Origin: Phycisphaerales bacterium
GTDB taxonomy: Bacteria > Planctomycetota > Phycisphaerae > Tepidisphaerales > Tepidisphaeraceae
Length of the DNA: 34,840 nucleotides
Assembly (NCBI GenBank): GCA_020847545.1
Contig: JADLBV010000025.1
Span: forward strand, 1 to 34,840
Reading direction: 5' to 3'
Shown here: piece by piece, positions 11,116 through 13,671 of the stretch
Layout of the letters: each line of letters begins with the position of its first letter
How positions within the stretch are numbered: the stretch's first letter is position 1
Made by a program: the position numbers and the translations under genes
The notes under the pieces: generated by a model
What the model was told of the DNA's origin: nothing
Seen by the model: the letters and a program-made list of their open reading frames with translations, nothing else
Database searches by the model: none

Positions 11116-12291
11116 TCAGTGGCCGGTCATTCCCTGCAATTCTTTCAGGCGATTGGGTGTTGGTGGTTTGCGGGTTTTCATCATTTCGATGAAAGCGTCG
11201 AAGAGGTATGAGGCATCGTGCGGGCCGGGGGAGGCTTCGGGGTGGTATTGCACGCAGAAGATCGGCAATGTGGCGTGGCGAAAACCCTCGACCGTGTTGT
11301 CGTTGAGGTTGATGTGGGTGACGACGCCGCCGGCCGATTCGAGGGATTTTCGGTCAACCGCAAAGCCGTGGTTCTGGCTGGTGATTTCGACCCGGCCGGT
11401 GTCGAGGTTCATCACCGGCTGGTTGCCGCCGCGATGGCCGAATTTTAGCTTGGAGGTTGTCGCGCCAATCGCCCGCGAGAGGAGCTGATGGCCAAGACAA
11501 ATGCCGAAGATGGGCAGTTTATCAAGAACTTGCTTGATTGGTTTGACGGCATAATCCAGCACGGCCGGATCGCCGGGGCCGTTGGAGATGAACAGCCCAT
11601 CGGGGCGGTGTTTGAGGATTTCATCGGCGGTGGTATCGGGGGGCAACACCGTCACTTTGACGCCCCGGTCGCTGAAATGGCGCAGAATATTGTGCTTGGC
11701 GCCACAATCCAATGCGACGACGTGCAGGCCGTCTCCCCGTTCGACCTTGTCTTGTTTCCAGAGTCCCTGGTCCTGATCCCAGTTGTATTGTTCGGATGGT
11801 TTGACCGCCTGCACCCAGTCGGCCCCCAGCATCTGGTTGGCCGACTTGGCACGGGCGATCAGTGCGGCATCGTCGAGAATTTCGGTGGAGAGGACACCGC
11901 GCATCGCACCCGACAGACGCAATTTGCGAACCAGCGCCCGCGTGTCGATCCCCTGGATGCCGACAATGTTGTTGGCGGCCAGATAATCGTGCAAACTCAT
12001 GTCAGCACGATAGTTAGAATAATCGGGGGCCAGTTCCTTGACGATAAAACCAGCCACCTGCGGCATTCGCGATTCGACATCCTGCTTGTTGATGCCGTAG
12101 TTGCCGATCAGCGGGTAGGTCATGGTGACGATCTGACCTTTGTATGAGGGGTCGGTCAGGATTTCCTGATAGCCGCACATCGAGGTGTTGAAGACCACCT
12201 CCCCTTCGGTGGTACCGGCGGCGCCAAAGCTGCTGCCGGTAAAGACCGTACCATCTTCCAAGGCGAGTTTCGCGGGTCGTTTTTGCATCAT
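11116..12291 (-). CDS. carA: Carbamoyl phosphate synthase small subunit (glutaminase)
   Basis: CarA hydrolyses glutamine and channels ammonia to CarB to make carbamoyl phosphate for arginine and pyrimidines. The 391 residues match the family. The N-terminal domain begins LALEDGTVFTGSSFG. The class I amidotransferase domain carries the nucleophile C265 in GICLGHQL and the H350/E352 pair in QYHPEASPG. carB is not adjacent in this window. The start is ATG-ATG. A TATAAT lies 8 nt upstream with no Shine-Dalgarno, so the transcript is probably leaderless. A 16-bp palindrome sits further upstream (12346-12361). Confidence 0.96.
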   Translation of the reverse strand: MMQKRPAKLALEDGTVFTGSSFGAAGTTEGEVVFNTSMCGYQEILTDPSYKGQIVTMTYPLIGNYGINKQDVESRMPQVAGFIVKELAPDYSNYRADMSLHDYLAANNIVGIQGIDTRALVRKLRLSGAMRGVLSTEILDDAALIARAKSANQMLGADWVQAVKPSEQYNWDQDQGLWKQDKVERGDGLHVVALDCGAKHNILRHFSDRGVKVTVLPPDTTADEILKHRPDGLFISNGPGDPAVLDYAVKPIKQVLDKLPIFGICLGHQLLSRAIGATTSKLKFGHRGGNQPVMNLDTGRVEITSQNHGFAVDRKSLESAGGVVTHINLNDNTVEGFRHATLPIFCVQYHPEASPGPHDASYLFDAFIEMMKTRKPPTPNRLKELQGMTGH

Positions 12292-12299
12292 CGGGGATG

Positions 12300-12305
12300 A
12301 TTATA
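12300..12305 (-). promoter_or_regulatory. -10 box of carA, probably leaderless
   Basis: On the minus strand TATAAT is separated from the carA ATG (12291) by 8 nt, so the 5' leader would be 0-3 nt. The -35 region is weak (TTTTCC/TTTCCT-like at about 12323-12329). No ribosome-binding site fits. Confidence 0.55.
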
Positions 12306-12345
12306 GAGCCGAAAGCCATCGGAGGAAAATCGGGATGTCGGCCAA

Positions 12346-12361
12346 CTTGAAATAATTCAAG
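12346..12361. promoter_or_regulatory. 16-bp palindrome upstream of carA
   Basis: CTTGAA-ATAA-TTCAAG is a perfect dyad with 6-bp arms. It lies about 40-56 bp upstream of the carA -10 box and about 25 bp upstream of the structured RNA candidate on the plus strand. It could be an operator for either. No regulator is suggested by the sequence alone. Confidence 0.4.
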
Positions 12362-12385
12362 TCGCATCCCTTCGTAGACGATATT

Positions 12386-12475
12386 TGGAAAGAGGCTGTG
12401 GGTCTCCGGCCTATATTGGCCGGGCAGCCTGACTGTAGGAGACCGGTGTCACGGCGAGCACCGGTCTCTTTTTTT
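12386..12475 (+). ncRNA. Structured small RNA candidate with own terminator
   Basis: The plus strand between two minus-strand genes holds a compact set of helices. P1 is AGGCTG/CAGCCT (12393-12398/12425-12430). Inside it P2 is CCGGCC/GGCCGG (12406-12411/12418-12423) with loop TATATT. An intrinsic terminator follows: GAGACCGGTG/CACCGGTCTC (12439-12448/12459-12468) plus seven T (12469-12475). GGTCTCC (12401-12407) can instead pair with GGAGACC (12438-12444), which would break the terminator, an attenuator-like alternative. No plus-strand gene ends upstream or begins downstream, so a stand-alone RNA of about 90 nt is the simplest reading. No known RNA family was recognised, and a promoter is only weakly suggested. 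Confidence 0.5.
12439..12475 (+). terminator. Intrinsic terminator of the small RNA candidate
   Basis: A 10-bp perfect stem (12439-12448 with 12459-12468) with a 10-nt loop is followed by seven consecutive T. The T-tract is only on the plus strand. It therefore does not serve the minus-strand operon ending at 12487, which would read A7 before the stem. Confidence 0.85.
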
Positions 12476-12486
12476 GCGCGCATTTT

Positions 12487-13671
12487 TCAATTCCGCAGCA
12501 ATGCCGGCTCGATCCAGTTGAACCGATCCTGGACATCCATCGTCCGCCCATAATCGACCTCGAGCATCAGGGTGGATGCCCCTTTGACGGAAATTGAGAC
12601 AACCGGCGAGAGCACGCCCGCCTTGAAGTCGGCCTGTTCGTGAACCACCTTTCCATCCAGCAGGATTCTCACCGTCACATTGGCATAACGGCCATCGGAA
12701 TCGGTCGTGTCGATCGCATATTGGGTTCGGAAGGTGGTGAATCGCCCTTCCAAGGCATAAACGAGTTTGGAATAGGAATGAACGCCGATGCCGTGGGTGT
12801 AAATGCGGTCGGCAAAACGGATTGGTTGGCCGGCGACATTGCGGTCCATTTGCGCGGGGTGGGTGACGGAAAAATAAGGGATTTGAATGTTTTCCTGTGG
12901 CGTCAATCCCGAAAGCCAGACCACCGGGCCGTTGAGTTGTTCGATGGAAACAATCGAACCAAAGGGGATTGTGCGCGTGGTGTTGTCGGCGAGTTGAATT
13001 TTCAGGCGATTGTCGGCCAGTTGAATGGTCGGTGCCACCAGAGAGGAACCATCGGTAAAGTGCAGCCGAAACGCGGGATCGGTGGATGTTTTTGGCGCTG
13101 CGATGGTGGCGAAGGTGATGCGAACAACCGAATCCATCGACACGGTGGCCGGTTCTCCGGAGGCGGGTTGAATGACCAGTTGTGTGGAATTCAGGTTGGT
13201 GATGATGCCGTGCAGGGAATCGCCATTGCCGAGAGTGACGACATCTTCGGTGGGGGTATCGGTCGAGATGGGTGCGGGTTGGTCGATGCGGGCAATCGCG
13301 GAAATTTGTCGCAGGGGAATGGTGATGTCAGAAATGAAAGTGTTGTGCCAGGATAATTTTTCCTGTTTGGTTTGAATGGGATTGCCAATGAGTTGGTCAC
13401 CGGAAAGCAGGTAGAGGATAAATCGCCCTTCGGGGTTGGTGGCGGGGCGCTGTTTGCGTTCGAGTTCCAGGAATTGGGTCAGGGGGATAGTGCGTGGAAC
13501 CTCGCTGGATCGGATGCGGGCGGTGAGGGCTTGATCATCGATGGAGATCGGCACAAGGGTCTGCTGATTAAAATCAGCGGTGGTCAATGTCCATTCATCC
13601 GTTTGGTTAGCCTGTGCAATCGTGAATGGCAGGAGCAACAGGCAGGCAATGATAAATCGAGTGTTGAACAT
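12487..13671 (-). CDS. Secreted NPCBM-domain protein (last gene of MoxR operon)
   Basis: A 394-residue exported protein. Residues 1-21 are a signal peptide with probable cleavage after IAQA. The middle contains repeated short beta segments such as VTLGNGDSLHGIITNL and LQLADN-type strands, resembling SH3-like or barrel modules of planctomycete secreted proteins. The C-terminal 130 residues match NPCBM/NEW2 (novel putative carbohydrate-binding module): GIGVHSYSKLVYALEG, then AIDTTDSDGRYANVTVRILL, then LEVDYGRTMDVQDRFNWIEP. Members bind glycans, so an envelope or matrix glycan role is inferred. The gene starts 3 bp after the alpha-toroid gene and ends the nine-gene operon. Confidence 0.85.
   Translation of the reverse strand: MFNTRFIIACLLLLPFTIAQANQTDEWTLTTADFNQQTLVPISIDDQALTARIRSSEVPRTIPLTQFLELERKQRPATNPEGRFILYLLSGDQLIGNPIQTKQEKLSWHNTFISDITIPLRQISAIARIDQPAPISTDTPTEDVVTLGNGDSLHGIITNLNSTQLVIQPASGEPATVSMDSVVRITFATIAAPKTSTDPAFRLHFTDGSSLVAPTIQLADNRLKIQLADNTTRTIPFGSIVSIEQLNGPVVWLSGLTPQENIQIPYFSVTHPAQMDRNVAGQPIRFADRIYTHGIGVHSYSKLVYALEGRFTTFRTQYAIDTTDSDGRYANVTVRILLDGKVVHEQADFKAGVLSPVVSISVKGASTLMLEVDYGRTMDVQDRFNWIEPALLRN

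Follow-up and report, generated by a model that had tools for sequence, protein, structure and literature searches.

What could a structured element that ends in a terminator serve where no gene follows on its strand? This question is raised by the region between carA and an NPCBM-domain gene in the window, i.e., the whole stretch of 34,840 nucleotides that was analysed. The first-pass annotation had described here two helices (P1 and P2) and a terminator hairpin with a T7 run, all of which lie where it had placed them, and had held that no plus-strand gene is served, in agreement with the minus-strand orientation of both flanking genes. Sequence comparison suggests that 12393-12475 (+) is quite probably a small RNA gene of the Planctomycetota, which has its own promoter and terminator, would be transcribed by a FliA/WhiG-type sigma factor and may act in trans. 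The features of the locus are the following (A1 and A4 are alignments of members of the family).

11116..12291, minus strand: carA, divergent neighbour (Pfam CPSase_sm_chain and GATase)
12301-12483, minus strand: listed ORF of 60 aa that covers the RNA
12357..12361, plus strand: -35-like box TCAAG of a putative flagellar-type (sigma28) promoter; TAAAG-like box in members
12377..12384, plus strand: putative -10 box GACGATAT; CGAT before P1 in 75/75 members
12393..12475, plus strand: putative small RNA gene (about 83 nt), its predicted 5' end based on the promoter and its 3' end on the T-run
12393..12399, plus strand: 5' strand of P1, partner 12424-12430; 5/7 pairs doubly changed (A4)
12400..12405, plus strand: bulge GGGTCT at the P1/P2 junction, conserved and unpaired
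12406..12423, plus strand: P2 hairpin, arms 12406-12411 / 12418-12423; 5/6 pairs doubly changed
12424..12430, plus strand: 3' strand of P1; covariation in A1 and A4
12438..12469, plus strand: terminator hairpin, stem 12438-12448 / 12459-12469; 10/11 pairs doubly changed (A4)
12452-12457, plus strand: terminator loop CGGCGA, near-invariant, a conservation partly due to how members were found
12469..12475, plus strand: T7 run of the terminator, then GCGC
12487..13671, minus strand: NPCBM-domain gene, convergent neighbour (Pfam NPCBM)

Folding and coding context

No listed plus-strand ORF of at least 60 aa covers the RNA or begins right behind it in the window, and the first listed downstream plus-strand ORF starts at 12640, within the minus-strand NPCBM gene. 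The 90 nt of the element fold at -46 kcal/mol on the plus strand (z -4.46; none of 200 shuffles equal) and at -40.4 kcal/mol on the minus strand (z -5.74), the latter because the elements are inverted repeats; the T-run and the promoter settle the strand as plus. A simple scan for terminator-like sites returned one in 1.2 kb, where shuffles would give 1.1; chance thus explains one such site, and the significance of the hairpin comes from conservation and covariation. One copy of the RNA was found in the window's own genome.

Conservation and distribution

When the 195-base intergenic region was used as a BLAST query against 100 relatives, the sister species matched over the whole region (85%, E 4e-58), and genera and families elsewhere in the class matched in the element only (query about 84-192), with 72-88% identity in the element for matches with E below 1e-6. 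The conserved block thus found in other families of the class spans about 85 nt. A pattern scan of genome contigs yielded at least 115 stretches, and members share a common plan, (A)GGCTGTGGGTC(T/A)-P2-(G/A)CAGCC-linker-terminator, with the loop CGGCGA and a T run. GTGGGTC stands in the bulge region of most members and is changed in a few divergent ones; P2 varies in sequence and is lengthened in most members from Pirellulales (alignment A3). The invariance of GGCTGTGGGTC and CGGCGA is inflated by the pattern that selected the genome-contig members, since it held both, a selection bias of which the BLAST member set is free. A T-run of at least four past the loop is present in 69 of 76 members. 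Within 4 nt after this run, past the expected end of the RNA, GCGC occurs in 43/76 members (12476-12479 in the window).

Two covariance models separate members from other sequences by a wide gap. Model R2 (57 sequences, promoter included) scored 49 of the 115 stretches listed, plus the window, at 69 bits or more, the next best reaching 18.8; model R1 (40 sequences), run on 87 sources that included 82 of the 115 listed stretches, gave 53 matches at 43.6 bits or more, the next at 20.6. These 53 are the same 49 loci, the window and L018, L022 and L023. The window's RNA scores 88.1 bits with R1 and 109.1 bits with R2 and its promoter, being itself a member of both models. All 49 loci among the matches listed bear planctomycete record names, with taxonomy checked for Anammoximicrobium, Mariniblastus, Bythopirellula and Sedimentisphaerales; the member taxa divide into Phycisphaerae and a second group made up of Blastopirellula marina DSM 3645 (copy at L079:7127-7214, +), Pirellulaceae and Thermoguttaceae. 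Two planctomycete-named pattern stretches and one Phycisphaerales-named stretch (L053, L092 and L094) had no match. Several pattern loci double BLAST loci (L063 = L016, L078 = L020, L150 = L021), and the sets of 75-76 members counted here contain near relatives (L072 with L082; L024 and L025 with L034).

By BLAST and pattern, 35 of 101 relatives carry the RNA, i.e., 31 judged real among the 38 genomes that fit a looser pattern and four found by BLAST only (G002, G016, G025, G045). A renewed search of 39 genomes with R2 added seven more at 39 bits or above, including G030. This genome holds two copies (L341, L347) and a FliA-type sigma factor, and gave no flagellin match. Across 294 genomes of the phylum, a strict pattern gave 17 hits, of which 12 were judged real and five chance by their letters, and a reversed-pattern control hit eight genomes; the 12 are a lower bound, because R1 found further divergent members among 30 chosen genomes. 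A covariance search of the 294 returned seven matches, but with 15 candidates scored per genome it is insensitive and gives no measure of prevalence. In ten genomes of family f44, R1 found no clear member, the one match of 33.5 bits having no visible promoter. Divergent members retain the promoter, P1, the terminator and a CGGCGA-like loop, and in one of them (L328) P1 is kept by a compensatory change, TTGACTGC/GCAGTCAA. By these searches the RNA is patchy in the phylum, occurring in at least Phycisphaerae and Planctomycetia.

Ten IMG/VR contigs fit the pattern; with R1 they score at most 15.6 bits, and they were taken as chance rather than as viral carriage. No Rfam 15 family reached its gathering score in the window, the best candidate, STnc390, scoring 19.4 bits against the 50 needed; the same search of 14 other members' loci found only a tRNA elsewhere in L079.

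Compensatory changes in the helices

Covariation in relatives had been proposed as the check on P1, P2 and the terminator, and compensatory changes were found in all three. In alignment A4 (57 rows, hand-picked from about 80 members), double compensatory changes are seen in 20/24 pairs, and 94.6% of cells pair, against 78.0% when shuffled and 33-54% with partners slid. Alignment A1 (40 rows, without L018, L022, L025 and L035) has double changes in 17/24 pairs, with 97.2% of cells pairing against 83.3% in shuffles and 29-54% with partners slid. Judged by these compensatory changes, the element is a conserved structured RNA.

A promoter of the sigma28 type

Upstream of P1, members share the promoter consensus T(A/C)AAG-N17/18-CGATA. 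CGAT lies 8-24 nt before P1 in all 75 members with enough upstream sequence (chance, 6% each), and its distance from P1 is 13-15 nt in 65/75; the CGAT counted for L019, at a distance of 23 nt, is unlikely to be the box. A TAAAG box with at least four of five matches, taken as the best of five spacings (15-19), is present in 60/75 members, and the spacing between box and CGAT is 17-18 in 66/75. This motif resembles one of Bdellovibrio, TTAAG-N16-CCGATA, which was reported for 92/140 promoters of the attack phase and is named there as the FliA (sigma28) site (PMC3627812).

A matrix built from the 75 RNA promoters was run on 60 flagellin upstream regions of RNA-positive genomes. At 11 bits or more it matched 18/60 on the coding strand and 1/60 on the opposite strand; the counts were 17 and 1 at 12 bits, 19 and 4 at 10 bits, and 22/60 and 9/60 at 8 bits. 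The window's own genome has TAAAGT...TGTCGATA before a flagellin gene (L242). The RNA and flagellin genes thus have a common class of promoter. Several of the other flagellin genes closely follow another reading frame, and this arrangement may account for the lack of a visible promoter there. A sigma28-type factor probably transcribes the RNA, as these promoter sequences suggest.

The FliA/WhiG family exceeded its cut-off in 92/101 relatives, the window's genome included. Being nearly universal, it gives a co-occurrence test with the RNA no power, and no association was found (p 1). Three RNA-positive genomes (G002, G019, G052; 58-95% complete assemblies) have no FliA over the cut-off. Flagellin is present in 32/35 RNA-positive against 41/66 RNA-negative genomes (p 0.002, kinship not corrected), and the renewed R2 search of 39 genomes found the RNA in 5/23 flagellin-positive and 2/16 flagellin-negative ones. 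The link between RNA and flagellin by presence is loose, and G021, G035, G052, G030 and G057 carry the RNA without flagellin. FliA/WhiG-type sigma factors also occur in genomes without a flagellin match (e.g., G030 and G034), so the sigma factor may have roles other than flagellar ones; for Bdellovibrio, a role of FliA beyond flagella has been argued (PMC3627812).

Two further observations concern promoters of this kind. The upstream regions of four flagellin genes (L242, L245, L254, L269) contain a long stretch with the common words TTCAAGGGAATG and GACCGCAGATCC, which is possibly a structured leader and which in L242, L245 and L269 follows a sigma28-type promoter according to the matrix. In L346 (G084), at about 1500-1620, a weak R2 match (20.4 bits) has a promoter-like stretch TCAAGT...GCCGATG and then a different hairpin, perhaps another sigma28 RNA.

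Neighbouring genes

In 25 of 70 loci, among them the window, the RNA has a divergent carA homologue upstream; such loci occur in both classes, and the site beside carA is perhaps the ancestral place; at loci without carA the neighbours vary. Both genes flanking the element in the window are on the minus strand, and its repeats fold on either strand, which, together with the 25 loci beside carA, could point to a minus-strand element, i.e., a carA leader or the terminator of a minus-strand operon behind the NPCBM gene. This reading is highly improbable, since the promoter box is oriented for the plus strand in every one of the 75 members, the T-run marks the same strand in 69/76, and the RNA also occurs at loci for which no neighbouring carA homologue was found.

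The nearest downstream ORF lies on the opposite strand in 51/70 loci and on the same strand in 15, and four have none. Speaking against a free-standing gene, mechanically listed ORFs of at least 90 aa overlap the RNA by more than 25 nt in 32/70 loci, and in 14/70 the overlapping candidate ORF has at least 250 aa. In many of these 14, not all, the overlap is close to the start or the end of the candidate ORF, a place at which the listed reading frame may run too far. The suggestion of a free-standing small RNA, with which the first-pass annotation had ended, is strongly supported by covariation, a promoter just before P1, a terminator and varied neighbours.

The bulge and the terminator arm

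The first-pass annotation had also proposed mutually exclusive helices, because GGTCTCC (12401-12407) could compete for GGAGACC (12438-12444). The two segments are indeed complementary. On this basis the RNA could be a riboswitch or attenuator, in which the GGGUCU bulge pairs with the 5' arm of the terminator and switches downstream termination, or which senses a ligand. In a pseudoknot version of this pairing, P1 and P2 would be kept and only the terminator excluded, which counts against the proposed design.

Several comparisons speak for such pairing. GGGTCT ranks first of 60 letter orderings in complementarity to the 5' arm, and a run of at least six bulge-arm pairs is possible for 75% of 76 arms, against 9% when shuffled and 24% of 17 other terminators (of 26 found), at least two of which are the element's own reverse strand (L036, L038). 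In A1, 86.4% of cells of the proposed 7-pair helix pair, against 33-65% with partners slid and 85.0% in shuffles (2/500 as high), and its covariation score is 0.235 against 0.214 shuffled (0/500 as high). The terminator arms also keep a pattern of a purine run followed by pyrimidines; a stem, however, retains such a pattern anyway when G-C turns to A-U. Moreover, only one of the seven pairs shows a double change, shuffles give as many, and most pairs lean on G-U.

Divergent members speak against the pairing as well. Of 13 such members, nine have an arm that suits the canonical bulge better than the member's own bulge, one has an arm that suits both equally, and three have an arm that suits their own better; the means are -7.9 kcal/mol with the canonical bulge and -4.7 kcal/mol with the own bulge. 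These means include L331, whose arm was mis-read, and L339, whose bulge is itself the canonical one; of the three contrary rows, two are the two copies of G030. Thus, the complementarity of bulge and arm stands above its controls, whereas the exclusive helix drawn from it shows little covariation and is misfitted by nine of 13 divergent arms. The pairing is mostly unsupported, and from these comparisons we judge that it is probably not maintained. The attenuator or riboswitch design is not supported in the window, where no regulated same-strand gene lies downstream, and it is quite unlikely for the family, the nearest downstream ORF being on the same strand in no more than the 15 loci counted above. 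If the pairing were real, the RNA would be a self-contained switch.

Mode of action

The trans-acting small RNA that we prefer would be transcribed by a FliA/WhiG-type sigma factor (sigma28 group) and would be made along with the flagellin genes that have this promoter, presumably while the cells are motile swarmers. It is predicted to form a P1/P2 arm with an unpaired GUGGGUCU stretch, followed by a terminator hairpin with a CGGCGA loop, and the bulge and this loop may be the contact sites for a target RNA or a protein. The RNA would act in trans without Hfq: none of 61 relatives of the window's genome matched Hfq, whereas five of 14 control genomes did.

A search for a conserved target by way of bulge complements returned none that was convincing. 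GACCCAC, which complements part of the bulge, lies upstream of 4/60 flagellin genes (L242, L245, L272, L280), and the 11-base bulge complement occurs at seven places outside the RNA in ten genomes, with one homologous pair, which comes from the sister species. A narrower proposal, that of a swarmer-stage RNA common to the classes, made by sigma28 and free of Hfq, which acts on a process that differs between the swarmer and the sessile cell and binds one partner through both bulge and loop, is tentative and at present rather doubtful.

The RNA could instead be bound by a protein and act as a sponge made with the flagellar genes, e.g., by titration of CsrA. Two conserved exposed elements would suit this role, at least one GGA is present in 65/76 members, and some flagellin genes (at L241, L244, L246 and L247) follow a reading frame that resembles CsrA. 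Nevertheless, ANGGA is found in only 11/76 members, and the GGAs, by eye, lie within or beside the terminator stem, outside the conserved bulge and loop; a sponge is therefore unlikely.

Relation to known small RNAs

Small RNAs of bacteria are usually conserved only within narrow groups. The planctomycete RNA is a single gene with a patchy distribution that spans classes of a phylum, unlike the RNAs of E. coli, Campylobacter and Bdellovibrio to which its promoter invites comparison. CjNC1 and CjNC4 of Campylobacter are small RNAs whose transcription depends on sigma28 and which, in an E. coli reporter and without Hfq, partially repressed the 5' UTRs of predicted targets (PMC4626219). These two are identical at 37/44 nt and belong to thermophilic Campylobacter, and their inactivation gave no phenotype in that account (PMC4626219). 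Expression of UhpU, MotR, FliX and FlgO of E. coli is likewise under sigma28 (fliA) control, but these sRNAs are UTR-derived and Hfq is a keyword of the paper (PMC10578931), whereas the planctomycete RNA stands alone and no Hfq was found in the relatives searched. In Bdellovibrio, merRNA and the APsRNAs are non-coding RNAs of the motile attack phase, and three APsRNAs are marked with a FliA promoter (PMC3627812). However, merRNA has 445 nt with a c-di-GMP riboswitch and bears no FliA-promoter mark in that source (PMC3627812), whereas the RNA described here has 83 nt and no Rfam match.

The Rhodopirellula-1 motif (PMC2864571) is similar in that it, too, is a candidate conserved RNA whose taxa include Planctomycetes and which has no Rfam accession. 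It was characterised in 2010 as an ambiguous RNA, probably cis-regulatory and present also in Proteobacteria (PMC2864571). Our literature search found no description of the present RNA, the Rhodopirellula-1 motif being compared by description only, and no described sRNA family for the planctomycete swarmer cycle. We take the RNA to be a new family of small RNA, set apart from Rhodopirellula-1 by description only.

The family keeps its sequence, structure and promoter, patchily, in at least Phycisphaerae and Planctomycetia, and since the RNA is present in a named isolate, Blastopirellula marina DSM 3645, these claims are directly testable. The RNA would offer a way into gene regulation during the planctomycete swarmer cycle and into the action of small RNAs without Hfq.
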